DNA of 64,000 nucleotides, from NCBI GenBank assembly GCA_958295785.1, contig OY282377.1, forward strand, positions 3,970,896-4,034,895. Direction: 5' to 3'. Each line of letters opens with the position of its first letter. The first letter of the stretch is position 1. Below the pieces are notes generated by a model. It was not told where the DNA came from and did no database searches. It saw only the letters and a program-made list of their open reading frames with translations. This document shows positions 3,627 to 40,501 of this stretch, one piece after another. The stretch comes from an uncultured Latescibacterota bacterium (GTDB lineage Bacteria; Latescibacterota; UBA2968). The translations under genes were made by a program, and so were the position numbers.

Positions 3627-3768
3627 GGGTAGATAAAATTCAATGAATGGCAAATGCGGGAATTAGGTCAGCTAGCGACGGGCTCTTTTTGACTTTGAGC
3701 ACAAACGTCAGGCGTCAATAAGAGCACCCAAAAGAAAACGCCAAACACAACAGGCCATCTGTCATTCA

Positions 3769-4860: not shown

Positions 4861-4874
4861 ATTCATAACCATTC

Positions 4875-5572: not shown

Positions 5573-5763
5573 ACGCGTTCCCAAAGCGACATCAAAAAAA
5601 TGAACACGCAATATATTCCGCTTCCCGGGGCCCAAGTCGAGAAAGGGACCGCCAGTGTCGAACAAAATACAAAATTGGAAGCCCGCGCGCGCAAGGTGTT
5701 CGGGCAGGTCAAAAAAGCAGGGGCCCTCCCCCCCAAGGTGCCCCGAGAAGTGGGCACGGCCTT

Positions 5764-5875
5764 GAAGCCCTAACATAAAGAAAGCAAGCGTCTGAAACAG
5801 AGGAGTGAACACCCGCAGGTACGCCTCAAAGGCGGCCTCTCACAAATCCATGGCAACGCTTTCTGTTAGGGACTC
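5764..5875 (+). repeat. MITE-A, complete solo copy
   Basis: This 112-bp element starts GAAGCCCTAACATAAAG and ends GTTAGGGACTC, so its own ends are imperfect inverted repeats. It is the same unit that bounds the CRISPR region at both sides. No matching target duplication is visible here (left flank CTT, right flank TAA). It separates a truncated secreted-protein ORF on its right from the channel gene on its left. Confidence 0.8.
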
Positions 5876-20615: not shown

Positions 20616-21020
20616 TTACAATTCGCTGCGATCTGTTTCACGTTGCCATTGCCGAAATACATTAACGAGATGATCGACAAATCGCCGGAAGGCTCGGTCT
20701 GCCCGCTTGGCGCGGTCAATGTCCATGTGTTGTACGATGTCTTCTGCGAACTCAATGCCGCCAAAACTGGGCATGATGCCCGCGGCGTGAATGGCCGCAA
20801 TCAAACGTTGTTTGTAGAGATCGCGGTCACACTTTTGATCCGGCGCATCGCAACCCCTGCCAACTGCGGCTTTGAATGCGGCACTATCGAGCAATAGCCA
20901 GCGTTCGATGTGTGGGTCGGGAATGGCGAGGATCATAGGCGCAGGCGCGTTGGGCTGACCAATTTCTCTGACGCGCTCATTCAGTCCCCTACAATTGGCG
21001 TCTGTGGCAACGATGATTAA
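20616..21020 (-). pseudogene. DUF4276 gene, 3' half (codons 65-198)
   Basis: This is the C-terminal part of the gene whose start lies at 27741-27935. It opens with 'LIIVATDANCRGLNERVREI', an Asp-bearing strand typical of Toprim-like folds, then 'MILAIPDPHIERWLLLDS' and 'GRGCDAPDQKCDRDLYK'. The frame joins the other half exactly once the insert 21021-27743 is removed. By itself it has no start signal. The intact protein would be a nuclease-like partner of the AAA ATPase at 27928-29226. Confidence 0.85.
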
Positions 21021-21132
21021 GAAGCCCTAACATAAAGAAATCAAGCGTCTGAAACAGATGAGTGAACACCCGCAGGAACGCCTCAAAGTCGGCCTCTCAC
21101 AAATCCATGGCAACGCTTTTTGTTAGGGACTC
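21021..21132 (+). repeat. MITE-A, left boundary of CRISPR element
   Basis: This 112-bp copy has its outer end (GAAGCCC) facing left into the DUF4276 gene. Its inner end is GTTAGGGACTC. It is very similar to the inverted copy at 27629-27740 and to the solo copy at 5764-5875. Confidence 0.85.
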
Positions 21133-21167
21133 TTATGCTAACATTCTCCAGTTAATGAACATGATGA

Positions 21168-24100
21168 GTTTCAATACCCTAGTAGGCGGGTAGTACTTCC
21201 AAATGGCTTGAAAATGAGTCGCCTTGGGGGTCTCGACCATGTGTTTCAATACCCCAGTAGGCGGGTAGTACTTCCAAATGCTGGTATTTGTCAGTGTATT
21301 CTTCTTGCGTGTTTGTCAAAAGTTTCAATACCCCAGTAGAAGGGGCATCCTTCCAGATGCAAGAAAGGGTTTGTGTCGCTTAGACACAAACCCTTTTTGT
21401 TTTTAATATCCCAGTAGGCGGGTAGTACTTCCAAATATACCACCGTCACGCTTACGGCTACGGCCAACTTGCCCTTGTGTTTCAATACCCCAGTAGGCGG
21501 GTAGTACTTCCAAATGCACACGATGACGAAGCCGACGATGAATCAAGTTGAGGTTTCAATACCCCAGTAGGCGGGTAGTACTTCCAAATAAAAGAAGTCC
21601 GAAACGCCGAAGTCCGAAACATAACCCCAGTTTCAATACCCCAGTAGGCGGGTAGTACTTCCAAATGTAAGTCATGAATCGTCTGCGCGGGGATGGCGTC
21701 AGAAAGTTTCAATACCCCAGTAGGCGGGTAGTACTTCCAAATTCACCTCACTCCGGAGGAGTTTTTGAGGCAACGAGCGGGACTGGTTTCAATACCCCAG
21801 TAGGCGGGTAGTACTTCCAAATTCAGTTATTCTGAACTGATCAACCGAATTTTATGTGTTTCAATACCCCAGTAGGCGGGTAGTACTTCCAAATCAAAGA
21901 CGATCCACGAAACATTCTCCGCGCGATTGACTTGTTTCAATACCCCAGTAGGCGGGTAGTACTTCCAAATCTGATTACACCAGAGAATTGGTACGAGCAT
22001 GAGAGGTTAGTTTCAATACCCCAGTAGGCGGGTAGTACTTCCAAATAAGGCGTGGGGGCAAATCGTACCATATCGCATTCAAAGTTTAGGTTTCAATACC
22101 CCAGTAGGCGGGTAGTACTTCCAAATCTATCGGTGAACTTTCCGAAATAGCCGCCGTCCAAAGAGTTTCAATACCCCAGTAGGCGGGTAGTACTTCCAAA
22201 TAAAACAGAAAGCCCTGCTGAAAAAGTTGACGCTGAGTAGGTTTCAATACCCCAGTAGGCGGGTAGTACTTCCAAATAAACGGCAACTATCAAATTGGCT
22301 ATCACGCAACATTATAGTTTCAATACCCCAGTAGGCGGGTAGTACTTCCAAATGAAAGGCACGTATAAGTGCCGATTTGTTTCAAGTCCTGAAGTTTCAA
22401 TACCCCAGTAGGCGGGTAGTACTTCCAAATACATTGAATTTGGTGTTGAAGCCGTGACAAATATGGTTAAGTTTCAATACCCCAGTAGGCGGGTAGTACT
22501 TCCAAATTATCAAATACGCCGCGATTATTCGAGGCGGATTGATTGAGTTTCAATACCCCAGTAGGCGGGTAGTACTTCCAAATGAAGACCTTGTATTTTA
22601 ATCCCCGAGAAAAGTCAGACGAAGTTTCAATACCCCAGTAGGCGGGTAGTACTTCCAAATGAAACGAAATGACACTTAGAACGCACGATCTCGCCGAGAT
22701 GTTTCAATACCCCAGTAGGCGGGTAGTACTTCCAAATATCACAATCAAAGTTACTTCCCGTAAGGGAGAGGATGACGTTTCAATACCCCAGTAGGCGGGT
22801 AGTACTTCCAAATCAGGACGAAAGGATTGCCGGATCGAAAAGCAACAGGCTGGTTTCAATACCCCAGTAGGCGGGTAGTACTTCCAAATGTTGGCCGTCG
22901 GAACCTTCGCTCGGGGCTGGCGGGAGGAAGGTTTCAATACCCCAGTAGGCGGGTAGTACTTCCAAATGCCTGGTGTATGGATTCTTAAGGGGGTTATCTT
23001 GTTACGGTTTCAATACCCCAGTAGGCGGGTAGTACTTCCAAATTGGAAAAAATTCTCGCATCGTAAATCCGAAATGCCGGTCAGTTTCAATACCCCAGTA
23101 GGCGGGTAGTACTTCCAAATTCGATGGCGGGAAGTGGAGATTTGGATTCGCCACGGAAGGTTTCAATACCCCAGTAGGCGGGTAGTACTTCCAAATTCGA
23201 TGGCGGGAAGTGGAGATTTGGATTCGCCACGGAAGGTTTCAATACCCCAGTAGGCGGGTAGTACTTCCAAATTTTTTACGCAGGTCTTGCGCGTGCATGC
23301 GCGTAAGGGCGTTTCAATACCCCAGTAGGCGGGTAGTACTTCCAAATGTAAACTTGTCGAAAGTGAAAGAGCGAAAGCAGACGCCGCGTTTCAATACCCC
23401 AGTAGGCGGGTAGTACTTCCAAATTTCCCCAATGGCTTAATCCATCAGAATTACAGATAGCGGTTTCAATACCCCAGTAGGCGGGTAGTACTTCCAAATA
23501 TGAAGATTGTCCGATTAGTAAAAAAGAATCCAAATTGAGTGTTTCAATACCCCAGTAGGCGGGTAGTACTTCCAAATCGACGACCTCGACCAGATCAGCA
23601 GGGCATGCGGCCTCCAGTTTCAATACCCCAGTAGGCGGGTAGTACTTCCAAATGCGCTCGAGGCATTTTTCATCGAGTACCGCTTCACCAGCGTTTCAAT
23701 ACCCCAGTAGGCGGGTAGTACTTCCAAATGAACAACTTGACCGCGTTTCAAGGCGCGAGCGACACGAACAGTTTCAATACCCCAGTAGGCGGGTAGTACT
23801 TCCAAATCGAATGCAGAACAAGCCATTAGGGCAGCCCGAGGTGGAAGTTTCAATACCCCAGTAGGCGGGTAGTACTTCCAAATTCGCCCCTGCGTTTATC
23901 CCCCTTGCATCTGCCTGCGGAGAGTTTCAATACCCCAGTAGGCGGGTAGTACTTCCAAATCAACGCGGGCAGAGGCGCACGGAACTCGTTCACGATTTTC
24001 TTGAGTTTCAATACCCCAGTAGGCGGGTAGTACTTCCAAATTCGCCCCTGCGTTTATCCCCCTTGCATCTGCCTGCGGAGAGTTTCAATACCCCAGTAGG

Positions 24101-26652
24101 CGGGTAGTACTTCCAAATCAACGCGGGCAGAGGCGCACGGAACTCGTTCACGATTTTCTTGAGTTTCAATACCCCAGTAGGCGGGTAGTACTTCCAAATT
24201 CACGGAGAGATCAAGAAGTACTATGCCCAAACGCTTAAAGTTTCAATACCCCAGTAGGCGGGTAGTACTTCCAAATGCGGCTGGATTACCACGAGATCCA
24301 CCATGATGGTGATGGGGTTTCAATACCCCAGTAGGCGGGTAGTACTTCCAAATTTCGTGGCTTTCGAGTTCATTCAAAAAACCAACATGACGGGTTTCAA
24401 TACCCCAGTAGGCGGGTAGTACTTCCAAATGCCCCTTGGGTTAAAGCCCTTGAGGACGTCCGGCAAAGTGTTTCAATACCCCAGTAGGCGGGTAGTACTT
24501 CCAAATGGCTTGCGAGGCGTGTGTCGTTCGTGCGCATCTTGATATGTTTCAATACCCCAGTAGGCGGGTAGTACTTCCAAATGGAATCGTTCGGCAATGC
24601 CGACGCTGTGAGCCAATATTGGGTTTCAATACCCCAGTAGGCGGGTAGTACTTCCAAATCCACTAAGGAGGGGTTGTGTTTTCTCATGGATCACAAAGTT
24701 TCAATACCCCAGTAGGCGGGTAGTACTTCCAAATCCATGACCTTGCGGGCAAGTTTTTTGCGCTGACTGAGCAGAGTTTCAATACCCCAGTAGGCGGGTA
24801 GTACTTCCAAATGGATTGGAGCGTGGTAATGAATGCGCTATATGATGCGAGAACAAGTTTCAATACCCCAGTAGGCGGGTAGTACTTCCAAATGGAAAGA
24901 ACTGGAATTGAAGACCCTGGCATCACGCCGATCAAGTTTCAATACCCCAGTAGGCGGGTAGTACTTCCAAATATACACACGCCGAGCTCATCTTCGCACG
25001 AAACAATGAGTGTTTCAATACCCCAGTAGGCGGGTAGTACTTCCAAATGATTTAATGGAGGTTAATACAATGACCTATCCTAAGGTTGGTTTCAATACCC
25101 CAGTAGGCGGGTAGTACTTCCAAATGTGAAAATCCGTGTAAGGAAAATTTACCCCATGCTGATTCGTTTCAATACCCCAGTAGGCGGGTAGTACTTCCAA
25201 ATAACCCACAAAAGGAGTAGCAAAATGAAACTTCGAGAAACGTTTCAATACCCCAGTAGGCGGGTAGTACTTCCAAATGCAAGCAATTCAGGAGCAATAC
25301 ACCCGAAAAGTCTCGTTTCAATACCCCAGTAGGCGGGTAGTACTTCCAAATCAGTGGGCAAGATATATCATGCTTGACCGCGCCCTAAACGTTTCGTTTC
25401 AATACCCCAGTAGGCGGGTAGTACTTCCAAATAAGTTTCATCCATAGGAGTAGCAAATGTCGAATATCAGGTTTCAATACCCCAGTAGGCGGGTAGTACT
25501 TCCAAATTATTACAAACGTAAGTCTCCGTCCTGCCCTATTCTGTCGTTTCAATACCCCAGTAGGCGGGTAGTACTTCCAAATTCGGTTTATTCATGGCTA
25601 CGCTCGTGAAGTGACTATTTATGTTTCAATACCCCAGTAGGCGGGTAGTACTTCCAAATACACACCCGAGGAAAAAGAGAAATTCCAAACATTTGTGAGT
25701 TTCAATACCCCAGTAGGCGGGTAGTACTTCCAAATCCGACGAGAGAGATCTCTGACCGATCCCGAGTACAGGGAAGTTTCAATACCCCAGTAGGCGGGTA
25801 GTACTTCCAAATGATACACGGACCCAGCACGCAACACGTTTCCCTACGATAAGTTTCAATACCCCAGTAGGCGGGTAGTACTTCCAAATCAATACGAGGC
25901 ATGCAACAGTTCCGCCGCATTATGCCGGTTTCAATACCCCAGTAGGCGGGTAGTACTTCCAAATAATGAACGTGATTGCCCAGAGGGCGCTCACCACGCA
26001 ACAAGGTTTCAATACCCCAGTAGGCGGGTAGTACTTCCAAATGAGAATTTGGACAATTTCTATGTGGTCTATTGCACTAATAAGTTTCAATACCCCAGTA
26101 GGCGGGTAGTACTTCCAAATGGGTATCGCATTGAAGGATTTATGCCCAACGACAAGAAGGTTTCAATACCCCAGTAGGCGGGTAGTACTTCCAAATTCAA
26201 TGTCCGATTTCGTGCGATGGGGGATTCTCCCCAAGTTTCAATACCCCAGTAGGCGGGTAGTACTTCCAAATAAGGCGTTGGAAGCGGAGCGAAAGGGGTT
26301 GCGCGAGAAGTTTCAATACCCCAGTAGGCGGGTAGTACTTCCAAATCTTCGGCTATAAAGTAGCAAGCGAACCAATACTATACAAAGTTTCAATACCCCA
26401 GTAGGCGGGTAGTACTTCCAAATCCTTCAAGGGGGATAGATGAATATCAATGTTGAGATACAAGTTTCAATACCCCAGTAGGCGGGTAGTACTTCCAAAT
26501 ATACCCCCGAGGAAAAAGAGAAGTTTCAAACATTCATAAGTTTCAATACCCCAGTAGGCGGGTAGTACTTCCAAAGTCGATGGCGGCAAGTGGATTTTTA
26601 GGGGTTTCGTCTCGGGTTTCAATACCCCAGTAGGCGGGTAGTACTTCCAAAG
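21168..26652 (-). CRISPR. CRISPR array, 72 repeats and 71 spacers
   Basis: The repeat is 37 bp, read on the minus strand as ATTTGGAAGTACTACC…TGGGGTATTGAAAC, with spacers of about 35-44 bp. Two clues set the minus orientation: the repeat ends in ATTGAAAC, the usual crRNA 5' handle, and the degenerate repeats (21168, 21322, 21400) cluster at the low-coordinate, leader-distal end. The two highest-coordinate repeats differ at one terminal base (CCAAAG for CCAAAT on the plus strand). One spacer is duplicated in tandem (23121 and 23197), and a two-unit block is duplicated (23884-24041 repeated at 24042-24199). No complete cas gene is in the window, so processing must be in trans. No AT-rich leader is evident beyond 26652. 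Confidence 0.98.
21364..21408 (+). terminator. Terminator hairpin in place of a spacer
   Basis: Between degenerate repeats 3 and 4 lies a perfect 14-bp stem, AAAGGGTTTGTGTC / GACACAAACCCTTT, with a 5-base loop. TTGTTTTT follows on the plus strand. It would stop plus-strand transcripts entering the array from the leader-distal side. The U-tract is weak in the minus (crRNA) direction. Confidence 0.7.
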
Positions 26653-26666
26653 CCCTCCTTTCTAAC

Positions 26667-26870
26667 TTATTGGGCCGCAGTTCGTATGAGGCCCTTGTGC
26701 GACTCAGGCCACTTTGACAGGCAGATGCCCCTCAAAATCGCGCTGACGACTAAAATGGTGTTCGGATAATTGCTTTCGAGACAGGCCGTTACAAATTTGC
26801 GACCCAGAATTGGATCAGGTAACGCGCCTAATGTTCGATAGCTTAAATCAATATAACCCCATTGCGTCAT
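26667..26870 (-). CDS. Short hypothetical ORF next to the array
   Basis: The frame gives 67 residues from ATG 26870: 'LSYRTLGALPDPILGRKFVT', then 'SNYPNTILVVSAILRGICLS'. It ends 14 bp from the leader-proximal repeat, where a leader would be expected. No family is recognised, and it may be a fragment of a larger gene. An A-run with a weak AGG lies upstream. Confidence 0.3.
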   Translation of the reverse strand: MTQWGYIDLSYRTLGALPDPILGRKFVTACLESNYPNTILVVSAILRGICLSKWPESHKGLIRTAAQ

Positions 26871-26931
26871 TATGACAACCTTTTTTTTTCTGGGTCGCAG
26901 ACGGACTTCTATCGCGTCGGCACTTGCCCAA

Positions 26932-27280
26932 TCAACCCGGTTGACTGCCCAATGCCAAACTTTCAGTTACTGATGTGAATTGCAGTCTCGGAAATACCGC
27001 TTCTGCGGCTTTCTGCTCCCAGTCCTGAAATGCCTGATCCATAAACTGACGGACATAATCCCGTGCTGTTCCACATCCTTCTTGAGAGACCGGCCCAAAG
27101 CCATGTGCGAGAATAGACTGATTTCTCAGCCCCAGCACTTTTTTCACAGCACTTTTTTGAGGTCGCCCTTCCCGTCATACTCATTTGTGAACACCCCCCC
27201 CCCAAGTCATCGACCAAATGCTTCAACAACGCATAGCTTTCATACAGCGGCAGTTCAATTTTGCCGGACCGGACGACCAC
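26932..27280 (-). pseudogene. HEPN (TIGR02710/Csm6-like) CRISPR protein remnant
   Basis: Two frames give the C-terminal region of a CRISPR-associated protein: 'SGKIELPLYESYALLKHLVD', then after indels 'LKKVLGLRNQSILAHGFGPV' and 'YVRQFMDQAFQDWEQKAAEA'. RNQSILAH fits the HEPN RNase motif R-x(4-6)-H. In type III systems such proteins are CARF-HEPN RNases switched on by cyclic oligoadenylate. The CARF half is absent. Frame breaks coincide with a 10-C run at 27194-27203 and a short duplication near 27140. It follows the cas1 fragment directly on the same strand. The family call rests on the HEPN block only. Confidence 0.6.
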
Positions 27281-27298
27281 TGACCACTGACTTTTCTC

Positions 27299-27580
27299 TC
27301 AGCGCACCAAAAAAGTTCGGTAGTGGCCTTCCTCGCCCAAGATCACCCGGGCCAATCGGCGCACTTGGTATTCGAGGCAACGCCGGTAGATCGTCCCTTC
27401 CACGCGCACGGCACTCACTGGGTAGATCACGCGGTCTTCAAGGCGTCGCTGGTATGCTGCGATTAACTGTTTGCGGCTGTCGCCTTGTAAAAATACCCCG
27501 CCATCTCGCGCTTCAAAATCCTCGCGTTGCACCCGATGGTGGTTGACCAGATCCAGAACGAGGGTATCCCCGCAATTTCA
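27299..27580 (-). pseudogene. cas1: cas1 C-terminal fragment
   Basis: Cas1 is the integrase of CRISPR adaptation. This frame encodes its last 90 or so residues: 'GDTLVLDLVNHHRVQREDFE', 'GGVFLQGDSRKQLIAAYQRR', then 'YRRCLEYQVRRLARVILGEE' and 'HYRTFLVR'. The N-terminal beta domain and the catalytic Glu and His are missing. The fragment is cut off exactly where a CRISPR repeat begins (27584), so array recombination may have replaced the 5' part. It cannot integrate spacers. Confidence 0.8.
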
Positions 27581-27583
27581 ACA

Positions 27584-27620
27584 GTTTCAATACCCCAGTA
27601 GGCGGGTAGTACTTCCAAAT
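27584..27620 (-). CRISPR. Orphan CRISPR repeat
   Basis: A single canonical 37-bp repeat, identical to the array consensus, lies between the cas1 fragment and the right MITE-A, more than 900 bp from the array. It marks a deletion or recombination boundary. Confidence 0.95.
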
Positions 27621-27628
27621 TGCACTTA

Positions 27629-27740
27629 GAAGCCTTAACAAAAAGCGTTGCCATGGATTTGTGAGAGGCCGACTTTGAGGCGTTCCTGCGGGTGTTCACG
27701 CATCTGTTTCAGACGCTTGATTTCTTTATGTTAGGGCTTC
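27629..27740 (-). repeat. MITE-A, right boundary of CRISPR element
   Basis: This is the inverted partner of 21021-21132. The inner end is GAAGCCTTAAC, the outer end GTTAGGGCTTC abuts the 5' half of the DUF4276 gene, and it is also 112 bp. Confidence 0.85.
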
Positions 27741-27935
27741 TAAGTCTGGCAACGGCCCCCCTTGTCCGCGCAGCAAATAGTCGCGGAGTTCCCGAACGAC
27801 CCGTCCGTGGCCCCTTACTGCACTTCGCCAGTTGAACCGCACATCGATACTGTATTCATCCGCAAGGCGTTGCACCAATGCGCCAATAACTTCTTGATGG
27901 GCGGAGTCTTCGACGAACAGCGCGATCTCACGCAT
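27741..27935 (-). pseudogene. DUF4276 gene, 5' half (codons 1-65)
   Basis: ATG 27935 overlaps the stop of the AAA ATPase gene (ATGCGTGA). The product begins 'MREIALFVEDSAHQEVIGAL', an acidic FVED strand as in Toprim-like enzymes, and runs to 'GGPLPDL' before the insert. Continuation lies at 20616-21017. The promoter and translation signals are intact, but only a truncated protein with a repeat-encoded tail could be made. ATPase plus Toprim-like nuclease pairs recall OLD and PARIS defence systems. Confidence 0.85.
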
Positions 27936-29226
27936 CGAAATCTCCTCTCAAAATGCGTTCGGAAACGGGCAGCCTTTCCGCTCGGTCGTCAAGTGCATAT
28001 TCAATATCGTTGCTGCGCGCCAGCGGCCCCCATGTGGTAAAGGGGTCGATATGCGTTTGGCGGTCAACGCGCCGCACCGCGAACAGGGAATCGCCGGACA
28101 GCAGATCGGGAAGAATCGGCGAATGCGTAGTGACAATGTACTGGGTCGGGCCAAGGCGCGAGCGCGTCTTCAGCAATTCCGCGATCAACCGAATCCGCCG
28201 CGGGTGAACGCCGTTCTCCGGCTCCTCAAAGCCCACCAGCGAGGGCACCTCATCGGCACCGGTCAATGCCAAAAGCCCCAGCATTCGCAACGTGCCTTCA
28301 GACAACACCCGCGCGGGAATGGCGACCCCACCTTCGTTCAGACGCAACTCGACCTCGCCGAGTTCGCTCACATCCACCTCAATCCCCTCCACATTGGGCA
28401 TCAAGGTGTGCAATGCCCTTTCAACGGCCTTGAACTGCCTGGGCTTGAGCACCTGAAGCGTATTGAGAAAAGCCGCGAGTTCCTCGCCCATCAGCCCCAT
28501 GTGGCGCACTTCCTTGACCGGATTGACCGCGCGCATGCGCTCGCGTGGCTCGAAGTAGAAGAACAGCCAATGCTCCAATTCGCGCCGCGCCGCGACCAGG
28601 TGCGGATAGTGCGGCGGATAATGCGGCATGGAAAGAATCGTATGGTCGAGATAGCGGTCGTAGTACGTGGGGTGCGCCTGTCCCTCCAGCCGCAAGCGGA
28701 TATGGTCGCCGTGCCGTTCGATAAAGGGCCTGCGTTTGCCCGTGGGTTCTCCCGCAGCGTTCAGCGCCGCCAGATATTCATCCGCGATGCACATAATCCC
28801 GGATCGGGGTTGCATCTCGACCTCCACTCGGTAGCGCAAGTTGCGTTCGCGGACAGGGGCGGGCCTGTTGTCTGTCTCTGTGCTGCTCGGACGCCGCATT
28901 TCCCGTATCTGCCGATTGACGGCCTCGACGACCCCATCCGACAGGTCCAAATCGGCCTCAAGAGAAAAGATCAACCGCTCTTGCTGAACCATCCCCTTAA
29001 GCCCTTTTTCCCCAATCGCGAAGGATTCGAGCGGCTTGCCCCGATACGGCGGATCAAAGGCTTCCTTCAGCGTGCGACTCGTCGCCAGTTTCGACAAAAG
29101 TTGGAGCGCGTCGAGGAAATTGCTCTTGCCGGCCGCATTTGGCCCGAATAGCAGGGTGAGAGGCGAAAGTTGCACCTCGACATTGGACAGGGATTTGTAG
29201 CCCTTGATGTGAACGCGCTTCAGCAT
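27928..29226 (-). CDS. AAA_21-type ATPase (OLD-like)
   Basis: This 432-residue ABC-like ATPase of the RecF/OLD type has Walker A 'GPNAAGKSN' (Lys 34), an acidic Walker B-like 'LVGFEEPENGVHP' (about 335) and the His switch 'VTTHSPI' (about 370). The signature-like 'VLSEGTLRML' precedes Walker B. It would be a cytoplasmic sensor-motor controlling the partner nuclease. Its stop overlaps the DUF4276 start, and its own start overlaps the GIY-YIG stop, so the three are translationally coupled. With the DUF4276 gene split, the pair is presumably disabled. Confidence 0.85.
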   Translation of the reverse strand: MLKRVHIKGYKSLSNVEVQLSPLTLLFGPNAAGKSNFLDALQLLSKLATSRTLKEAFDPPYRGKPLESFAIGEKGLKGMVQQERLIFSLEADLDLSDGVVEAVNRQIREMRRPSSTETDNRPAPVRERNLRYRVEVEMQPRSGIMCIADEYLAALNAAGEPTGKRRPFIERHGDHIRLRLEGQAHPTYYDRYLDHTILSMPHYPPHYPHLVAARRELEHWLFFYFEPRERMRAVNPVKEVRHMGLMGEELAAFLNTLQVLKPRQFKAVERALHTLMPNVEGIEVDVSELGEVELRLNEGGVAIPARVLSEGTLRMLGLLALTGADEVPSLVGFEEPENGVHPRRIRLIAELLKTRSRLGPTQYIVTTHSPILPDLLSGDSLFAVRRVDRQTHIDPFTTWGPLARSNDIEYALDDRAERLPVSERILRGDFDA

Positions 29227-29600
29227 CTCGCGTCTCCTTTCATCTTATTCCGATTCGTCTCGGGTTGCCAGTCGCGGATGATGGCTGTTTCCAAGGCGTC
29301 GGTTTCCTCGGCATTGGCCGTGAAGGCGACTGAAAATTGCACCATGTCGCGGAAGGTGCGGAGGACGCGCCGCAGGCTCGGGTTCGGCTCGTTCTGGAGG
29401 TGGTCGAGCAGGCGGCGACGGATGCAGGTTTCCGACTTGCCCACATAGATGCAGTCGTACCCGTCTATCACTGCCGATGGCAACCACAGCGCGTACACGC
29501 CGCAGCGGTTCTCCGGCAGTGTCTGCACGTTTTCGCGGCAGTAGGGGTGGTGCTGTTGCCGCAAGCGATATTTGAGGGCGAAGGGGGTCGTTTGGGACAT
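29220..29600 (-). CDS. GIY-YIG nuclease-domain protein
   Basis: The product is 126 residues starting 'MSQTTPFALKYRL'. The GIY-YIG core is visible as 'CGVYALWLPS' (GVY), then 'YDCIYVGKSETCIRRRLLDH', with the YVG and the catalytic-type Arg, and a later acidic helix containing 'TDALETAIIRDW'. Such small domains cut or nick DNA. The longer frame is rejected because its first 28 residues fall in low-complexity gap DNA. It lies between the methyltransferase and the AAA ATPase, overlapping the latter by seven bases. Its target is unknown. Confidence 0.8.
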   Translation of the reverse strand: MSQTTPFALKYRLRQQHHPYCRENVQTLPENRCGVYALWLPSAVIDGYDCIYVGKSETCIRRRLLDHLQNEPNPSLRRVLRTFRDMVQFSVAFTANAEETDALETAIIRDWQPETNRNKMKGDARC

Positions 29601-29702
29601 TTTATAGGGGGGAGTGGCTACTGCGAAAGGCATGAGACTGAGAAAGACGTGAGACTGAGAAAGGCACGGGCGGGGACTGGTCACTGACCACCGGCCACTG
29701 CA

Positions 29703-32609
29703 TCACAACAGCGTCCCCTGTTCTTCAATCTGCATCCGCTCGACAATATCCTGCCACTCTGCGACCAGATGGTTGAAGAGGACCGCGTTTTGGGACTCGC
29801 CCTTGCGGTCGTGGTGTTCGTAGAGGATGCGCGCCAACCGCTCGACGGACTCGGCGTTGCCGTCCATGGCCCGCGCCACTCGCGCCGCGCCGGGAATGCC
29901 GCCGCCGTCCTCGCGCTTGGTGTCCAAGTGATACGCCATGCGGAAGCAACCCTCCCACGCGGTCATTTTGAGCAGGGGAGGGGGCAACGGGCGGTCGGGG
30001 CCGTATTCATCGACCGGTAGCAGGCGCACTCGCCCGCCCCCGGCGGTGAGCAGATGGCGTATAGACAGGGCGTCGATGGACACGTTTTTGGCTTGGGCGA
30101 GCACCTCGGCGTCGCCGTATCGGCCTTCGCCATAGCCATTCTGCCGCAACCAGTCCATGCAAAAGCGGCTCTCGGCGTCCAAGTTGCCCTGTTCCCGCTG
30201 GTGGTATTCGGCGATGACGCGGTTGATCTCGGCCAGTGCCTCGCGCACCGGCACAGGCTCGCCGCCGATAGTCTCCACGCTGCTGTATTGGGAGTAGATT
30301 TTCATGCCCGGCCCAATGGCCGCCTGCGCCAAATCGACCGGGGCGATGTGGCCCTTCCGTGTGAGGTGGTCGAGATCGGCGGGCAAATCGCGCTCTAAGG
30401 CGTCCAAGAACTGGCGGCGCGTCACCATGACCGCGTCCTCGGCACGCGGGCGGCAGACCAAGACGACGGACGAGGCCAGCGCATTGGTTCCGAGCGAAAC
30501 TGAACGATTGCCCAACTCCGTTCGCATCGGCCAAGTGCCGATGATCTGAAATCCGGCGTTCACCAATGCGGACAGCATCGTGTCCCAACCTGTGGAGGTT
30601 CTGCCGCCGCGTGCCATCTCCTGTTGTTTGTAGGCGTAGAAGATGGACGACGGAAATTCCGGGCTACAACGCTTCCGTATCAGCCGCAAGGTTTTGTTCA
30701 ACAAATCCTCGAATCGCTCGCGGGGATTATCGAACCGGAACCGAGAGGCAATCATCTCCTCTGCTTTGGGTACCAGAATGCCGGCAAACAGTTCAGGATA
30801 GATGCCGCGCAACAATGGGCGCAACCATACATAGAAGAAGTCGGAGAGATCGGCGTAACCAATGTTGTCGTAATAAGGCGGATCAGTAACGATTACGGGC
30901 CCACTGTCGGCGTAGATGGTGGTTGAGGCGTCGGCTTGATGTGTTTCACCGGCGTTTGCATCAACAGGCAGACGCTCGACAGCATTTGAGATTCGTTCAA
31001 CGTGAGCAAGCCAATTCCCTATTGAATTGCAGAAGGGATTCGTTTCGGCAAAATCCCAAACCATCGGGATTGCTTGGCGTGCGAAAATGTTTCTGATTGC
31101 TTCAAGCGACACATGCAACGTCGCAAAACTGGAACAATAGTCCGCATTTTTACCAACCGCCAACGCAAGATAGGTGCGAATAGAATTGACGTATCCCTCA
31201 TCCGCTCCGTCCCTTTTTATGACCTCTCCAACATCCCCTAACAGATCGCTAAACGTGGTCAGCACGGTCAATTGTCGCTTTGTGAAAAGTTGATGCCAGT
31301 GTGTCAACCCATAAGCCTGCACCCTGAAACCCAAGGCTTGCTTTGGTAGATTGCCGACAGGCCGCCATTTAGGTTCGGCTTTCTGCGCCGCCTCGACATG
31401 ACCTTCTGTTGGCGACGCGAACAGCCGCTTGCGATTCCCCTCGGCGACGATGGCAGTCATCACCTCGCCCATCCGCCCTGCCTGCGCCTGCTCGCGCACA
31501 TAAGTCAACTTCACGCCGGCGTTACACGCGATACAGGTCGCGCCGTTGCGGTCCACGGTGCCGCCCTTGGGCACACCGCCGCTGTGGTTCTGCACCGCAA
31601 ACGAAACGCTTGCGCCCTCGACGACCGGCCGTATCCAGTGCTCATTGCCCTTTTTCTTCGACACCTGAAACGTCCTCATCAACGGCATTGCCGCGCCGCA
31701 GGCCGGATTCGGACAGGGCACTGTCCGCGCCCACAGCCACGCGATCACAGTGGCCTCGCCGCCATCCCTCAGTCGCACCTTGGGATAGAAATGCCCGACG
31801 CGCCTATAAGCCTCCTCGCGCATCCAACGCCCGTAATAGCGAATGTCGTCGGCCAAGCCCGCCGCACCGCGCCAGTGGCCGGTGGCTGTTGGCTTGTCCT
31901 CGCCCCCCTGCATTCCAACCTTTCCCTGCCCACTGCCCACCGAAGCCGCGTTTTTTTTTCGCGCCTTTTCGCGTCTTTCGCAGTTTGTTTTCACCGACCG
32001 TTGCCCCCTGACCACTGGATCCACATCTGGATTGATCGGCGGCCGATTGCGGAACTTGGGCGGCAGTTCGATCAACGCCTTGGTGATGAGCACGGCGACC
32101 GGGTTGAGATCCGTCCCCACTGCCTTTAGCCCCAGCCGTTGCGCCTCCAACGGAATGGACCCGCCGCCAGAGAAAGGGTCGTAAATGGGCAACGCCCTGT
32201 CGGCCAAATAGCGCAACACATCCGCCGACGCAGTGGGGGCCGTCTCGCCCCCGCGAGCGCGGGCCACCGAGCGGGCGATCTCGTATCGCGCCTGCCGCAA
32301 CAGCACCTGCACATCGGTCTTGCGCTCGTCCGTGCTCTCCCACTTGACCAACTCGCGGATGATCCCGTGCAGCCGCTCACGCTCGGCCCGCTGCGCCTCC
32401 TCTGTGGGAAACTCCTCCACACACGCCGCTGGGTCATCCACCATACTGGCAAAAATGACCGCCCGGCACGCCGCCAATGGCCGCCGCGCCCACCACAGAT
32501 GCAACGTGGAGGGATGGCCGTGCCGAATCGATTTCTCGCGGGCCGACTCGGCGTTGATCTCCGCTAAGGGCAGATCGACCTCGATGAGCTTCTTGCGGTA
32601 TATTTTCAT
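29703..32609 (-). CDS. DUF1156 DNA methyltransferase (anti-phage type)
   Basis: This 968-residue amino-methyltransferase has the DUF1156 N-terminus 'LIEVDLPLAEINAESAREKS' and 'HLWWARRPLAACRA', SAM motif 'IYDPFSGGGSIPLEAQRLG' (about 142-160) and the catalytic motif DPPYYDN (about 573). Zinc-like Cys pairs occur near 280 and 350. Such proteins are found with DUF499 ATPases in phage-defence clusters, and a DUF499 gene lies at 37163-40501. Residues about 198-229 are encoded by DNA resembling an intergenic repeat, an in-frame insertion. It could methylate self DNA or act in restriction. Confidence 0.88.
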   Translation of the reverse strand: MKIYRKKLIEVDLPLAEINAESAREKSIRHGHPSTLHLWWARRPLAACRAVIFASMVDDPAACVEEFPTEEAQRAERERLHGIIRELVKWESTDERKTDVQVLLRQARYEIARSVARARGGETAPTASADVLRYLADRALPIYDPFSGGGSIPLEAQRLGLKAVGTDLNPVAVLITKALIELPPKFRNRPPINPDVDPVVRGQRSVKTNCERREKARKKNAASVGSGQGKVGMQGGEDKPTATGHWRGAAGLADDIRYYGRWMREEAYRRVGHFYPKVRLRDGGEATVIAWLWARTVPCPNPACGAAMPLMRTFQVSKKKGNEHWIRPVVEGASVSFAVQNHSGGVPKGGTVDRNGATCIACNAGVKLTYVREQAQAGRMGEVMTAIVAEGNRKRLFASPTEGHVEAAQKAEPKWRPVGNLPKQALGFRVQAYGLTHWHQLFTKRQLTVLTTFSDLLGDVGEVIKRDGADEGYVNSIRTYLALAVGKNADYCSSFATLHVSLEAIRNIFARQAIPMVWDFAETNPFCNSIGNWLAHVERISNAVERLPVDANAGETHQADASTTIYADSGPVIVTDPPYYDNIGYADLSDFFYVWLRPLLRGIYPELFAGILVPKAEEMIASRFRFDNPRERFEDLLNKTLRLIRKRCSPEFPSSIFYAYKQQEMARGGRTSTGWDTMLSALVNAGFQIIGTWPMRTELGNRSVSLGTNALASSVVLVCRPRAEDAVMVTRRQFLDALERDLPADLDHLTRKGHIAPVDLAQAAIGPGMKIYSQYSSVETIGGEPVPVREALAEINRVIAEYHQREQGNLDAESRFCMDWLRQNGYGEGRYGDAEVLAQAKNVSIDALSIRHLLTAGGGRVRLLPVDEYGPDRPLPPPLLKMTAWEGCFRMAYHLDTKREDGGGIPGAARVARAMDGNAESVERLARILYEHHDRKGESQNAVLFNHLVAEWQDIVERMQIEEQGTLL
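31925..32018. repeat. Dispersed repeat inserted inside the methyltransferase gene
   Basis: The plus strand reads a CCACTGCCCAC edge, a T-run, CGCGCCTTTTCGCGTCTTTC, CAGTTTG and GACCACTGG. The same words make up gaps at 16860-16910 and 34395-34470, and TGACCACTG also occurs at 27278-27292 and, in variant form, near 29680. Here the repeat is in frame and adds about 30 lysine/arginine- and glycine-rich residues. Confidence 0.6.
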
Positions 32610-32639
32610 TGTTGCTCCTCACAGTACAACAAACTAATC

Positions 32640-32830
32640 AACAGAACGGCGTAGGGGTTGGGAGCGGGCGGACCGCTGACTTCTTGGAATCTGGGGGGGG
32701 GCGAGGACTACGGGTGATGGAGGACGAGCGGACTGACCGCTGACTTCTTGGAATCTGGGTGCGAGGACAGGCACGGGGGCCTGTCCCTACGGGTGATGGA
32801 GGACGGGCGGGCGGACCGCTGATGGTACTG
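32640..32830. repeat. Imperfect tandem repeat, about 2.5 units
   Basis: The unit begins ACCGCTGACTTCTTGGAATC (32672, 32735 and a truncated start at 32815) and includes ACGGGTGATGGAGGACG. One unit has gained the palindrome-like GACAGGCACGGGGGCCTGTC. There is no gene here. Confidence 0.65.
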
Positions 32831-32975
32831 CGCGCAGGCTCTATTTTTTGGGAGAAAGTGCCCATAGTGGATGTGCAAATTGGGGAGCGTCTCTAGGGCT
32901 TCCAAGTATGTTTTCTGTCGCACTCGTCGCTCCGAGTCTTTTGTCGTTTTCTTCAACGTTCCCATCTGAAACGAA

Positions 32976-33749
32976 TTAAGAGGCCAAGCTGATGTACCTG
33001 TCAATATCGGGAACAGATTTTTCCCGAAAGTCGTTCAGTGCCGGATACTGGGTATCGGCATTCTTGGTCAGGTAGGCCCGTTCCTTTCTTCCCAACGCTT
33101 CGAAATCCTCATAAACCACAAGGCTGAAGAACGGCAACTCATCTTTCTCAAACTCCAACAGAGCAATGGCGACATTTTTTGCCTTGTCGTTGCCCGGCAC
33201 TCCGAAAACATAAAAGTCAACATTTTTGTATTTTAGAAACCAATCTACACTGATGGGATATTCAGAGAGAGGAGAATAGTCCGCACGGGGATTAAACCGC
33301 TTGAGTTCGGTCGTGACGTATTCCTCCAAATCGTCGTAAAACGCACTGCGGATAATCTCTCTGCTCCAATAGCGCATATTGCACACTTTTTGCACGCAAC
33401 CCGCAAATTGCAATATACTCTCATAGAGTCTGTCCACAGGCGTATCCAGATAAAGATGGCCCTGATCGTTATGAACGCCGTTGTTGATGAGAATACTGTC
33501 AAAAATTCTCTGCCGGGTGTCGGTATTCACCTCGTAAGTGTAGGACAAGCGCATCAGCGTCATTCCAAAATCGCATAAGCGAATACAACCCGCGTGCTCG
33601 GCGCTATCCTGCAAATAGATGTCCACCATATCTCCATCCTCGTGGAGTATGGGAGCGATCAACTGGTAATGCCCCGGGCGGCGCTCGTAGAAATCAAAGC
33701 CCGCCGCTATCGTACCGCTCAATGAGGCCCTAATGCGATTGATGTCCAT
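32976..33749 (-). CDS. DUF1828-domain protein
   Basis: This 257-residue protein matches the DUF1828 pattern as I remember it: 'PILHEDGDMVDIYLQDS', 'IRLCDFGMTLMRLSYTYEV' and 'RQRIFDSILINNGVHNDQGH', followed by a C-terminal region with 'VDFYVFGVPGNDKAKNVAIA' (nuclease-fold-like beta strands, DUF1829-type). The function is not established. AGGGAG lies upstream of ATG 33749. The neighbours are defence genes, and the next gene upstream on the same strand (33901-34236) is probably its operon partner, so a toxin-antitoxin or defence role is possible. Confidence 0.65.
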   Translation of the reverse strand: MDINRIRASLSGTIAAGFDFYERRPGHYQLIAPILHEDGDMVDIYLQDSAEHAGCIRLCDFGMTLMRLSYTYEVNTDTRQRIFDSILINNGVHNDQGHLYLDTPVDRLYESILQFAGCVQKVCNMRYWSREIIRSAFYDDLEEYVTTELKRFNPRADYSPLSEYPISVDWFLKYKNVDFYVFGVPGNDKAKNVAIALLEFEKDELPFFSLVVYEDFEALGRKERAYLTKNADTQYPALNDFREKSVPDIDRYISLAS

Positions 33750-33900
33750 TAGAAAAGGCTCCCTTACAGTAATTCGGGGAAATACCCCCCGTAATTGGTC
33801 GCGCCAATATCGCCAAAGAAAACCACAAGCGCGTCTTCAAATGTGCTATATCGGCTCGTGATTTTTCTATCTCGCTCTTGGGGTTGCGTATTTCCAGACG

Positions 33901-34236
33901 CTATTTCTGTTGCGGTGATGCGGTGAATGTGTGGCTGGGCATAATGCCCATCGGGGGCCGGCTGTATCCGCCGTGCGGTCCATTGTAGCGAACAAGCGTG
34001 ATGGTTCCCAACTTTGGGTCGTTGGTTTGATAACGCAACCCGATAGAAAAATTTTCTATGAACATGATGTTTTGGCGCGTAAAGACCGTGAACTTTTCGG
34101 CGCTGGACGGCATGGTTTCCAATGCCAAATCACAACGCTTGTGGAGATTTTCTTCTTTATATCCTCTAACGGGTTCCTTCTTTACGATCACTTTGGGACA
34201 AGCTATCAAATCCCTAATTTGCCGATCAGTCAGCAT
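33901..34236 (-). CDS. Hypothetical 111-residue protein
   Basis: ATG 34236 follows AAAGGAG at good spacing, which rejects the longer start. The protein begins 'MLTDRQIRDLIACPKVIVKK', with 'KFTVFTRQNIMFIENFSIGL' and 'TLVRYNGPHGGYSRPPMG', a small beta-rich domain. I do not recognise a named function. It precedes the DUF1828 gene on the same strand by about 150 bp, suggesting a two-gene unit. Confidence 0.65.
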   Translation of the reverse strand: MLTDRQIRDLIACPKVIVKKEPVRGYKEENLHKRCDLALETMPSSAEKFTVFTRQNIMFIENFSIGLRYQTNDPKLGTITLVRYNGPHGGYSRPPMGIMPSHTFTASPQQK

Positions 34237-34328
34237 AGCATCTCCTTTAGCCACAGGTCGACGAGCTTTGACATACACTCTCTACCTGTGTATTATTTTC
34301 TTTCCCCCAGTGATAGTATCGCTGGCCC

Positions 34329-34370
34329 GACGCTCCTCAGTTCTCAAATTGAGGGGCGTCTCTTTTTTTT
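34329..34370 (+). terminator. Hairpin with T-run
   Basis: The 11-bp stem GACGCTCCTCA / TGAGGGGCGTC (one G-T pair) is followed by TCTTTTTTTT. It is oriented to stop plus-strand transcription into the minus-strand genes. 34371-34489 holds the dispersed GTGAACTGCTGGTGAGG-type palindrome and no gene. Confidence 0.6.
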
Positions 34371-34489
34371 GAGCCGTCCTCCCGCCTCTCCGATTTCCAC
34401 GCCTTTTCGCGTCGTGAACTGCTGGTGAGGCGTCGCAGTTGTACCCCGCTCCGCGTCTTTCGTAGTTCCCTTGTCCGGCTGTAGCGTGT

Positions 34490-34966
34490 TTAGCCACGCA
34501 ACGCTTGGGTCAATGGCGATCCGCACCGCATTAGGTGAATCAGTTCTGGCTTTCCTCGAAAACGAACCTTGTTTTTACGCAATTTGTCCACTTCAGCGCG
34601 GTGAAGTCCACCATCGTGAACTGCGATAGGGCGAAACCTGACTCGAATCTTCTGTGGCAATAAATTATCCGCTATATTGGCCCCACCCTGCAATTGGCGT
34701 TGAAACTCGTTGGCCCCTTTCTTACTTGCGGTCAATTCTATTGGCGCGACCCACGGCCCGTCATTGTCATCTTTGCCGCCAACGAACAAATAATTACAAT
34801 GAGCTTGGTTGATATTCACCGGCGAAGCCGGGTGTTCCAGACTGATCAGCACATTTGGCTCCGGTACATCCTTCAGTGATAGCGAGCAACCACCATCGCG
34901 GCATTTTGTATCATGGCATCCTGGGTCTGTTTTTCTTCGAACTGTTTCCACCACTGTCGTTGGCAT
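34490..34966 (-). CDS. Partner of AAA ATPase, unknown
   Basis: This 158-residue protein starts with ATG overlapping the ATPase stop by one base (TAATG), so the two are coupled. The N-terminus has a Cys/His cluster ('CHDTKCRDGGC') and a strand-rich middle ('VLISLEHPASPVNINQAHCN', 'YLFVGGKDDNDGPWVAPIEL'). A basic C-terminus ('LRKNKVRFRGKPELIHLMRC') follows. The 'VAPIELTASKKG' stretch recalls restriction-like nucleases in which E-x-K lies on a beta strand, but I cannot confirm it. It is probably the effector of a two-gene defence system. Confidence 0.6.
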   Translation of the reverse strand: MPTTVVETVRRKTDPGCHDTKCRDGGCSLSLKDVPEPNVLISLEHPASPVNINQAHCNYLFVGGKDDNDGPWVAPIELTASKKGANEFQRQLQGGANIADNLLPQKIRVRFRPIAVHDGGLHRAEVDKLRKNKVRFRGKPELIHLMRCGSPLTQALRG

Positions 34967-36531
34967 TATCCCTCCTCAGTCCGGCTAAAAATATTTGCCC
35001 AGCGGTTATAGAGCGATTCCGTGACCAACCCGAAACCGGACTGGAAGCCACCAAACTCCGCGTCAAGCGGTATTTCCTTTACGACCGATCCTTTGGGTCG
35101 CTGCTTAGGCTCGAACAGCCACGCACCCACTTCGTCGCGGCGGAGTGCAAAGTCCGCGCCCGCGATGTCTCTCCTCTGTGCTTTCGGAAGTTCCGATAAT
35201 AAAACCAGATTCGCCAATTCTTCCAGCACCCACTCGCTGTGCGTGGTGAGCATCACGCGGACGCCAGAGCGCACAACCGCCGCGAGTTGGCGGATAAATT
35301 CGACCTGCATTTCCGGGTGCAAGTGAGACTCGGGTTCCTCGATAATCAGCACATCGCCCGCCTGAACCACATGGCGCAAGTACAACACGACCGGCGCCAA
35401 CTCCGACACCATGGACGACGCATTCATCAAGGGTATGTCTTTCTTACATCCTTCCGGTTGATAAGAAAAAATTGGATAGCCTGTCTCTGAGTCCTCTTTG
35501 CGGATTTTCCCCTTGAGGATTTGTTTCTCAAGCCTTCCGGCGAGATTCCCGTCACGGACGCGCTGTCTTCTGCCCGACAAATCTCCAAGCCCAACGAGTT
35601 GCTCGAGAAAATCGGCGAGAACGCCCGAAAGTGCTGGCAACGGCGTGTCGCGCATAAGTCCCCCACGCGGCGCGTGTTGAATCAAAGAAGCCACGACGAC
35701 GCGGTGCGCGTGCATAACCCCAGTGCGGTCAGCGGGAAGATAATGGGCTGCGCGAGCCAATGGGCCAATAGTGGAGAAAACAACCAATTTGGAAATTTGG
35801 TCTATGATCATTGCCGCAATCTCTCTTTTTTCTTCCTCGTCTTCTAATTCGGCATATCGCGTCTGTGAAGCAAAGATACCAAATGGAAAAACCGGAAACC
35901 TCTGATCACTAATTCTCGGTTGATCAATATGCAACGGATGCTCTTTGGAAGTCGAAACCACCAATTCAGATTGCTTACCTTTCAGTGCCAATTCATACTC
36001 GAAAGGCTTGAAGGAATCGGAATCCTCCGCGATATGTTGCAGAACAATCCTCGCATCATGGTTCTTGCCATGGCGAATGAGTTGGCGCGTATCTTCGACA
36101 CCGAAGCTCCGCCCGACTTCCTCCGCGATGATTTTGTTGAAGTCTTCCATCTGCTTAATGGTAAGATGGACCCATGACGCGACAAAGTCCGGCAGTTGAA
36201 CCCGCGAATTATCTGACGGATTTTTTGCTACTGTGTCTATCCACGCAATCAATTTTCTAACATCCTCATCGGAGATATCCTGTTCCTTTGCCCATCTACC
36301 TCGATAGAACAAGGGGTAGTCTCTTGGCGTAAGCCCAAAATGCCGACCACTGAAATAACCGAAATAACTGCTGAAAAACCTGTGCAGCGCGTAAATCAGG
36401 ATCGCCAAGTAGGATTTGCCGGTGTTGCTCGGCCCGACGAAGACCGTCAGCGGGCGCAAGTCGATTTCCGCCTCGGCGATGGGGCCAAAATTTGAGACCC
36501 TCAGCGCGAGGGGCTTTGTGTCAGTCGCCAT
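34966..36531 (-). CDS. AAA ATPase (OLD/RecF-like)
   Basis: The 521-residue ATPase has Walker A 'GPSNTGKSY' (Lys 39), Walker B 'VLIIEEPESHLHPEMQ' (about 398) and the His switch 'MLTTHSEWVLEEL'. The long helical insert between them is typical of defence ATPases of the AAA_15/AAA_21 type. The start is ATG 36531. The gene downstream overlaps by one base. With its small partner it resembles other two-gene ATPase-effector defence modules; no known system name fits with certainty. Confidence 0.82.
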   Translation of the reverse strand: MATDTKPLALRVSNFGPIAEAEIDLRPLTVFVGPSNTGKSYLAILIYALHRFFSSYFGYFSGRHFGLTPRDYPLFYRGRWAKEQDISDEDVRKLIAWIDTVAKNPSDNSRVQLPDFVASWVHLTIKQMEDFNKIIAEEVGRSFGVEDTRQLIRHGKNHDARIVLQHIAEDSDSFKPFEYELALKGKQSELVVSTSKEHPLHIDQPRISDQRFPVFPFGIFASQTRYAELEDEEEKREIAAMIIDQISKLVVFSTIGPLARAAHYLPADRTGVMHAHRVVVASLIQHAPRGGLMRDTPLPALSGVLADFLEQLVGLGDLSGRRQRVRDGNLAGRLEKQILKGKIRKEDSETGYPIFSYQPEGCKKDIPLMNASSMVSELAPVVLYLRHVVQAGDVLIIEEPESHLHPEMQVEFIRQLAAVVRSGVRVMLTTHSEWVLEELANLVLLSELPKAQRRDIAGADFALRRDEVGAWLFEPKQRPKGSVVKEIPLDAEFGGFQSGFGLVTESLYNRWANIFSRTEEG

Positions 36532-37162
36532 GTTGAATCATCCTGTGTGTCGCGAGTTATGTCGCAAGTTCAGTTGACATTTTTTAGGTGGTACATCCGC
36601 TTATTGGTCGCGGCTTCGAGAACCCTCTGAGCGCGCTCAATGAGGCCGGCCGCGATCCGATTGGTGATCGCGAATATGGGTTTGAAGGCACTGTTCATTT
36701 CGCGTTCCTTTTTTTCCGCCGTGAACTGCTAGTGAGGCGTCGCAGTTGTACCCCGCTTCGCGTCTTCTGCGTTCTTCTGCGTTTGCTTTTCGCCTTTCAT
36801 CCGCGCAATCCGCGCAATCCGCGCAATCCGCGATCCGTCTTTGTATCTTGCCTTTTCGGGCGAGCACGGGGGCATCGCCCCTACGTTTTTATTTTCGCAT
36901 CTTGCCTTTGCCTTTCATCCGTGTAATCCGCGTAATCTGCTTAATCCGCGATCCGCCTTGTATTTTGCCTTTTCGGGCGAGCACGGGGGCCGCGCCCCTA
37001 CGTTTCTATCCTCGCATCTTTCTTATGCTTTCATCTGCTTCCATCTACGTTCATCTACGTTCATCTACGTTCATCTGGGTTTGCCTTTGCCTTTCATCCG
37101 TGTAATCCGCGTCATCCGTTTAATCCGCGATCCGCCTTTCGCAGTTCTTTTGAGACTTCCGC
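36532..37162. repeat. Repeat-filled gap, three degenerate units
   Basis: About 120-bp units recur: CTTTCATCCGYGYAATCCGC…, CGATCCGCCTT, CTTTTCGGGCGAGCACGGGG, GCCCCTACG, and TTTTCGCATCTT. Inside are short arrays of GCAATCCGC (36800-36830) and TACGTTCATC (37040-37075). A GTGAACTGCTAGTGAGG palindrome sits at about 36720. Short open frames here are repeat artefacts. Confidence 0.75.
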
Positions 37163-40100: not shown

Positions 40101-40501
40101 ACGACGGCGATGTCGTACAGGCGGACCTTCGCGTATTCCACATCCATATCTTGCCGCCCCGAATGCACTGCTTTGTTGCGTACTTCTGTGATTATCCACA
40201 ACAGATTCTGAACCGTTTTGTCATCCCCAAACGCACGGCTGAAGACCTCGCGCCAGTTCCTGCTGACCAGATTGGGAAAGTCGTTGATGTCAATCGCGTC
40301 CTCGACGCTGTCGTTCCGCTGCAAGTTATGGCGGAACTGCCCGGCCTGCCGGTCAGGCAGCGTTTCGCTTATCGCGTCTTCGACCCCCTTGCCCTTAACT
40401 CGCTTCAAGCAACGGACGATAAACGGCCGCATGGCATCGCGGTAAATATCCAGCGCGTTTAAAAGCGCGTCTCGGTTTGGTCGTCGGTCGGTCTTTGTCA
40501 T
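37163..40501 (-). CDS. DUF499 ATPase with N-terminal HEPN-like domain
   Basis: The 1,112-residue protein pairs functionally with DUF1156 methyltransferases in anti-phage clusters. The N-terminal ~130 residues resemble the Swt1-type HEPN domain, with 'EVRNKAVHSG' (Arg 108, His 113) matching the HEPN RNase motif. The ATPase follows: P-loop 'TGFGGGKTHS' (Lys 270), 'VGPSLILMDELVAYV' (Walker B, about 389) and 'VLVITLPESD'. The C-terminal region is partly acidic with a proline-rich linker. The start is ATG 40501. It is the most upstream gene of the island on this strand. Its mechanism is not known in detail. Confidence 0.85.
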   Translation of the reverse strand: MTKTDRRPNRDALLNALDIYRDAMRPFIVRCLKRVKGKGVEDAISETLPDRQAGQFRHNLQRNDSVEDAIDINDFPNLVSRNWREVFSRAFGDDKTVQNLLWIITEVRNKAVHSGRQDMDVEYAKVRLYDIAVVLGRTNASDAKREVEGIRDRLVSESDQRDGAVPSAPVNARTTRKARSSINLRPWRDVMPPSSDVALGTFQEAEFAADLQRVHDGRALATEYGNPVNFFRQTYITPGIRTLLVNALKRLSGNGGDPVIQTKTGFGGGKTHSLIALYHLVNSADALLNDSSQSNEEIGALIGEAGLTSHDIPQIAVAVLDGTHLAPTDTRTTPGGDPRNALWGEMAYQLGGQDAYEMIGQAAREGTAPGGAQLDDLFSTVGPSLILMDELVAYVRNVPSDREGSIYTFLQALSQSVSRADEAVLVITLPESDMELGGEAGQKALARLEHIFGRIEAVWEPLEVSEAFAVVRRRLFGALENAGERDRTCEAFSRMYGQSRGEYPSGVSEARYLQRLKDCYPIHPEIFERLYADWSSIPQFQRTRGVLRMMANCISYLYRQNDAGPLIMPATLPLRDDSLGNEFERLLPGQWQAVLSEVDSDHSQADRIDATVQRFAEVGGAARRLARAIFLGSAPSGAVKGIDLRQIHLGAVQPGDGISAYNDALQRMVGDLYYLYTDDGRYYFHAEENLNKVATDRAAQLSNRDIEERIVAELREAVGRRADVVLCPANSAAVPDNDSTRLVILRPNQSLPSRSAEADEGTQAALDILENRGDGPRVHRNTLLFLAAKNDELRTLKTHTRTYLAWDSIVHGDRRIANLAGDRLRQARSSLEQAKSEMEAALVRAYRWAMAPTQADPQRADYGFSTFQTEDTGAIVDSAFAKFIAQEALVEGISPMSLASMLARYVWTNEAYRYHIAIDTLWELMTSQVYMHRLRNKTVLMDCINRGVPNRDFGYAEGCQNDDYRGLRFGGDMPDFSAGVAEGDAGLLVNPDMAQLVEEEMPPEAIQPPTDSAYTPQQPHGDETPSPPAPRGPKRVAVTKTMQGEISLDDVNLLREEIIRNLRDDGGDITVEITIRAHKADGFSESTARAVRENSVQLNLAIDMETQDGGLA

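Follow-up and report, generated by a model that had tools for sequence, protein, structure and literature searches.

A CRISPR array of 72 repeats sits inside a DUF4276 (HEC-01B-like) gene of an uncultured Latescibacterota bacterium. The 6,720-bp insert that carries it, breaking the gene at codon 64/65, is probably a composite non-autonomous transposon, in which two inverted MITE-A copies enclose a decayed type III-A locus and which was moved by the transposase of IS-A. The insert lies in a 64,000-nt stretch of DNA (the window; C1:3970896–4034895) of a single-contig genome of 5,660,449 bases that is 99.3% complete. Positions given without the prefix C1 are those of the window, and the relatives compared (G008, G004, and others) are Candidatus Latescibacterota MAGs.

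Results

The two halves of the DUF4276 gene lie on the minus strand in the same frame, as the original prediction had read them and as translation and alignment to the G008 homolog confirmed. The N-terminal half (27744–27935; 64 codons, ending in GGPLPD) aligns to residues 1–64 of this homolog. The C-terminal half (20616–21020; 134 codons), which also aligns to it, consists of 20616–21017 plus a Leu codon derived from the target site duplication, begins with LIIVATDANCRG..., and matches Pfam DUF4276 (PF14103) slightly under the cut-off. The proposed deletion of 21021–27743 was exact: it takes out the 6,720-bp insert and one TAA, and joins 64 and 134 codons into 198 codons in one frame. The AAA ATPase partner gene (HEC-01A-like; Pfam AAA_21) is intact at 27928–29226 on the minus strand.

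The uninterrupted gene, which the original prediction had suggested seeking in related genomes, is present in the congener G008 as one ORF directly after the AAA gene, with its N and C parts adjacent and with 69% amino acid identity to the window gene (75% for the AAA genes). Comparison with this gene places the break precisely at ...PDL/I(V)VATDANC. Among AAA homologs from other bacteria, 69 of 80 have DUF4276 in one piece beside the AAA gene. In G004, no CRISPR array was found at the syntenic chromosomal place, recognized by its flanking genes; the AAA gene there (81%) precedes a DUF4276 remnant with an internal deletion. Together, the single ORF in G008, the array-free place in G004, and the unbroken homologous loci indicate that the DUF4276 gene was formerly whole and was interrupted in this lineage. 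The internal deletion in G004 is large (stretch L081, 9031–9300), so the genus has lost the candidate defense partner more than once.

PADLOC assigned the window AAA protein to HEC-01A (E 2e-53) and the intact G008 DUF4276 protein to HEC-01B (E 1e-7), so that the host gene pair has the predicted HEC-01 arrangement of HEC-01A followed by HEC-01B. Its neighbors were assigned to HmaB (E 1e-290) and HmaC (E 2e-245). Based on these assignments, the insertion appears to have hit a candidate antiphage pair within a Hma-type defense locus. This locus extends around the HEC-01-like pair over 27928–40501, with HmaB at 29706–32609 and HmaC at 37166–40501, and also encodes a PDC-M24B-like protein and a second AAA ATPase.

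The ends of the insert are, as had been noted, inverted 112-bp MITE-A copies bordered by TAA direct repeats (21018–21020 and 27741–27743), the latter recognized as target site duplication from the sequence and from aligned MITE-A copies. The inverted repeats at the ends extend over 119 nt with 95% complementarity, and the two MITE-A copies are 98% identical over the aligned 108 bp, forming the paired miniature ends expected of a composite. Read from left to right, the left copy (21021–21132, plus strand) is followed by a 35-nt stretch with an inner TTA flank (21133–21135) and then by the array (21168–26652), hereafter W, which has 72 repeats of 37 bp and 71 spacers and whose direction on the minus strand was deduced from repeat orientation and leader side. 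The leader (26653–26932, minus strand) was nearly identical to those of two further arrays of this genome, A and B, in a three-way alignment. Next comes a frameshifted C-terminal fragment of csx1 (26933–27271, minus strand), recognized by alignment to the intact operon at locus A and by translation of its csx1. It is fused directly at 27271 to cas1-side homology, of which 27271–27568 is 95% identical to C1:29421–29719 (BLAST) and in which 27299–27577 is a 92-codon C-terminal cas1 fragment on the minus strand (Pfam PF01867; PADLOC Cas1; BLAST). A lone, perfect repeat (27584–27620, plus strand) lies 5 bp ahead of the second inner TTA (27626–27628), the interval and flank reading TGCAC-TTA, and the right MITE-A copy (27629–27740, minus strand) closes the insert.

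Of the components of a type III-A locus (cas10, csm2–5, and an array), the insert holds the array, and the full set is found at locus A. Its content marks the insert as a decayed type III-A locus, which looks like a locus-A-type operon with the whole stretch from the cas1 end to the csx1 end deleted. The claim that the array lacks an intact cas locus holds locally, but the insert retains 92-aa cas1 and C-terminal csx1 fragments, and an intact operon is present elsewhere in the genome. No tns or tniQ genes with a CRISPR effector were found in the insert, whose only long open frames are the array and the cas remnants; a Tn7-like CAST was thus ruled out. A casposon, with a Cas1-solo integrase and terminal inverted repeats, was also rejected, given that only a 92-aa cas1 fragment is present and the ends belong to IS-A.

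Locus A (C1:26596–48709) comprises PrimPol, cas1, cas10, csm2, csm3, csm4, csm5, csx1, leader, array, and cas2, and its array has 60 repeats of the W type. Array B (C1:1445816–1448997; 42 repeats) has only a leader and a csx1 end alongside. Besides the lone repeat, W has 68 distinct spacers among its 71. Its repeats are mostly perfect, its trailer repeats are degenerate, and the repeat read on the minus strand has the 3′ end ATTGAAAC. The leader on the right, the degenerate repeats on the left, and the repeat orientation suggest that W is transcribed on the minus strand. The three arrays have no spacer in common despite their near-identical leaders, which rules out that W is a simple recent whole-array copy of A or B. 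The two leader-proximal W repeats have a private T-to-G change, indicating some extension of W after its separation from A and B. The W-type repeat was not found in 10 congeners, the insert had no match in phage and plasmid records, and W spacers gave short, weak matches (16–26 nt) to the sampled part of their own genome. Tandem duplications of one spacer and of one two-spacer block occur within W (23084–24199), and array B has a two-spacer duplication similar to that in W.

MITE-A is 112 bp long; its terminal repeats (GAAGCCCTAACA / TGTTAGGGACTC) are imperfect, and the duplication that it makes is TWA (3 bp). In the census of MITE-A and IS-A, which covered 1.77 of the 5.66 Mb of the genome, 51 full copies of MITE-A were counted (~29 per Mb), a density at which two copies near an array are not remarkable alone. 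A search of 59 other genomes gave no match to MITE-A. IS-A (925 bp) shares the ends of MITE-A and encodes a transposase with PF13340 and PF01609 (IS5-family); it is present in well over 40 copies, many of them split across two frames. Given this full-length relative with a transposase, MITE-A is by its sequence a derivative of IS-A. Solo MITE-A copies have matching 3-bp TWA duplications of their own in 20 of 26 cases, so that the TAA at the insert is the normal duplication of MITE-A.

Other pairs of these ends carry cargo in this genome. An element consisting of two MITE-A copies around a 1.3-kb ORF occurs in nine copies (C1:370255, 463502, 486644, 3798778, 3950387, 4169337, 5085306, 5090530, and 5168620) that are ~95% identical and lie in eight distinct flanking contexts, two of them sharing flanks. 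Outer duplications match in 9/9, and the members' own duplications mismatch in 8/9. Two more copies of the 1.3-kb ORF, bringing the total to 11, have IS-A at one end and MITE-A at the other, with matching outer flanks (TTA/TTA). The ORF has weak similarity to Rpn family nucleases (TIGR01784, under cut-off) and a low-complexity GIEQ repeat. Furthermore, an inverted IS-A/MITE-A composite of ~4.5 kb with a TAA duplication lies within the last spacer of array A (C1:42593–47136). When this composite and one TAA are taken out, a spacer of 41 nt results, and the seemingly lone repeat at C1:47143 proves to be the terminal repeat of array A. A second copy of this composite, 96–98% identical, extends from window position −48 to 5875 (C1:3970847–3976770); its outer flanks differ from those of the first copy and are again TAA/TAA. 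Two copies of a 1.1-kb IS interrupt this second copy.

The matching outer duplications in all 11 ORF elements and in both inverted composites indicate that MITE-A/IS-A end pairs in either direct or inverted orientation can mobilize DNA in this genome. The CRISPR unit shares this signature, with outer TAA/TAA, inner TTA/TTA, and mismatched own duplications of both MITEs, which supports its movement as a MITE composite. Given that two duplication types are common, an outer match alone has a ~50% chance of occurring, and the weight of the composite reading comes from this match combined with the exact gene break and the behavior of the other end pairs.

Discussion

We consider it likely that the insert moved as a composite. 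Its outer borders (TAA/TAA) have the duplication size normal for MITE-A, and its target is uninterrupted in relatives (the G008 gene; 69/80 homologous loci). The IS-A transposase would have worked in trans on the outermost end of each MITE, and a single transposition event would have placed the entire 6.7-kb block in the DUF4276 gene, disrupting that gene and duplicating TAA. Array W, which keeps its leader, is probably still transcribable, and the intact type III-A operon at C1:26.6–49 kb, which includes cas1 and cas2, could serve it in trans. Some observations count against this explanation. The leader/cas1 block of the CRISPR unit is single-copy, so its mobility rests on one site; no donor site was found for the unit; and G004 has lost most of its DUF4276, marking the gene as dispensable and damage-prone. 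The original prediction that the array moved as a transposable unit with MITE ends, or was built inside one, is supported by the G008 gene, the outer duplication, and the other end pairs. That an array of 72 repeats moved was overstated, given that the evidence also fits a short seed that moved and grew later.

Such growth in place, in which a leader with a few repeats moved and was extended by Cas1-Cas2 supplied in trans from locus A, is compatible with the composite and is possible, if somewhat doubtful. It would account for the absence of common spacers among A, B, and W despite near-identical leaders and for the private T-to-G change as a mark of extension after separation, and cas1 and cas2 are present at locus A. 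However, both halves of the DUF4276 gene are free of stop codons, which argues for an insertion that is young for 71 acquisitions, and degenerate trailer repeats like those of W are typical of an old array end. An unlikely explanation is that a small circle bearing the array, the leader, and the csx1 and cas1 fragments, and having a single MITE within a spacer, integrated into the chromosome at a MITE that DUF4276 already contained, by recombination or as a cointegrate at the MITE ends. With a TTA duplication in the spacer and a TAA duplication in DUF4276, this route would yield the outer TAA/TAA and the inner TTA/TTA together and would account for the lone repeat, and the composite in array A shows that such elements insert into spacers. 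Moreover, the inner flanks (lone repeat-TGCAC-TTA and TTA-TGCTAACATTCTCCAGTTAATGAACATGATGA-repeat 1) give 40 nt when put together, the length of a spacer in W, where spacer lengths peak at 39–40 nt. A circle that has a single MITE within a spacer explains this 40-nt join better than a linear composite does, while a join of this length may not be rare by chance if both MITEs lie within spacer-length distance of repeats (estimate 1–20%). On the other hand, Campbell-type or cointegrate integration would leave the MITEs in direct orientation, and they are inverted; exchange would need to be limited to the imperfect terminal repeat of ~17 bp; and plasmid and phage records yielded no match to the insert. 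The joined 40-nt sequence and the repeat had no exact match among viral contigs.

The abundance of MITE-A would also allow two copies to have inserted independently beside the array, with another rearrangement bringing the array to the gene. Each MITE should then match its own duplication, as most solo copies do; the mismatch at both rules out independent flanking insertions, and the exact break of the gene at the outer duplication leaves the combined route very improbable. A plain inversion or adjacent replicative transposition of a nearby MITE was rejected on paper, given that it would leave one gene half in the flipped segment. MITE-A and the CRISPR repeats are repetitive sequences of the kind that an assembly might join falsely, but the genome is a single, nearly complete contig, the array is unique by its spacers, the order and strand of both gene halves agree with the intact homolog, and ordinary long reads would span a 6.7-kb insert. 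We regard an artifact as scarcely credible.

Composite transposition of the array thus remains our preferred reading, and it has partial counterparts among known systems. MITE composites are known with antibiotic resistance or integron cargo, such as the 439-bp MITEs around integrons in Acinetobacter (PMC3934969) and the TIME-COMPs (PMC4133298; PMC13367494). They resemble the insert in having two non-autonomous miniature copies around unrelated cargo in an open reading frame, a short direct repeat, and a transposase acting in trans. They differ in that the cargo here is a CRISPR array with its leader and the ends are of the IS5 family, and the MITEs here are inverted, whereas those described with PER-1 have the same direction (PMC3934969). 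CRISPR arrays are also carried by Tn7-like elements, which have machinery dedicated to this (PMC8649781; PMC8616872). The insert is like these CRISPR-associated transposons and defense-cargo elements in that a transposon bears the array, but it has no Tns/TniQ, Cascade, or Cas12k, and the array does not guide transposition as far as its sequence shows.

Insertions into cas genes are likewise known as a form of IS and MITE activity at CRISPR-Cas loci (PMC10359306). In those cases, the element enters and disables the CRISPR-Cas locus, whereas here the array is the cargo; array A of the same genome, with a composite inside a spacer, is the reverse case. Similar to the orphan or isolated arrays described previously (PMC8616872), W has no adjacent intact cas genes and shares its repeat with a cas-linked array, but unlike for those arrays, the route to orphan status is visible in the sequence. 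In the literature searched, which was mostly outside subscription journals, we found no MITE composite described with a CRISPR array as its cargo; such cargo appears to be new, with its novelty not proven by this search.

Orphan CRISPR arrays occur commonly, and their sequence rarely reveals how they ended up at a distance from their cas genes. At this site, the junctions, the target duplication, the uninterrupted homolog, and the transposon family are all present together. They suggest a concrete and testable route, the relocation of an array together with its leader by simple IS-derived ends, after which an operon elsewhere in the genome can serve the array. The event would also be a collision of immunity modules, in which an array landed in a candidate antiphage gene within a Hma defense locus. 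It is tempting, if rather speculative, to extend this to leader-array blocks as routine transposon cargo in this genome, copied or moved by IS-A/MITE-A ends and supplied with spacers by Cas1-Cas2 in trans. If true, one operon would serve several independent memories, and array B would represent a second case, in truncated form.

An IS-A copy lies beside the leader side of array B (C1:1443764–1444688), and its mismatched flanks (TAA/TTA) are as expected of one end of a former composite; no partner end was found within the stretch examined around array B. The two copies of the 1.1-kb IS that lie around array B were rejected as ends of a composite carrying it, given that single copies of that IS usually have their own short duplication. 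A further, divergent cas1 is present in two matched pieces at C1:4095803–4096435, ~97 kb beyond array W.
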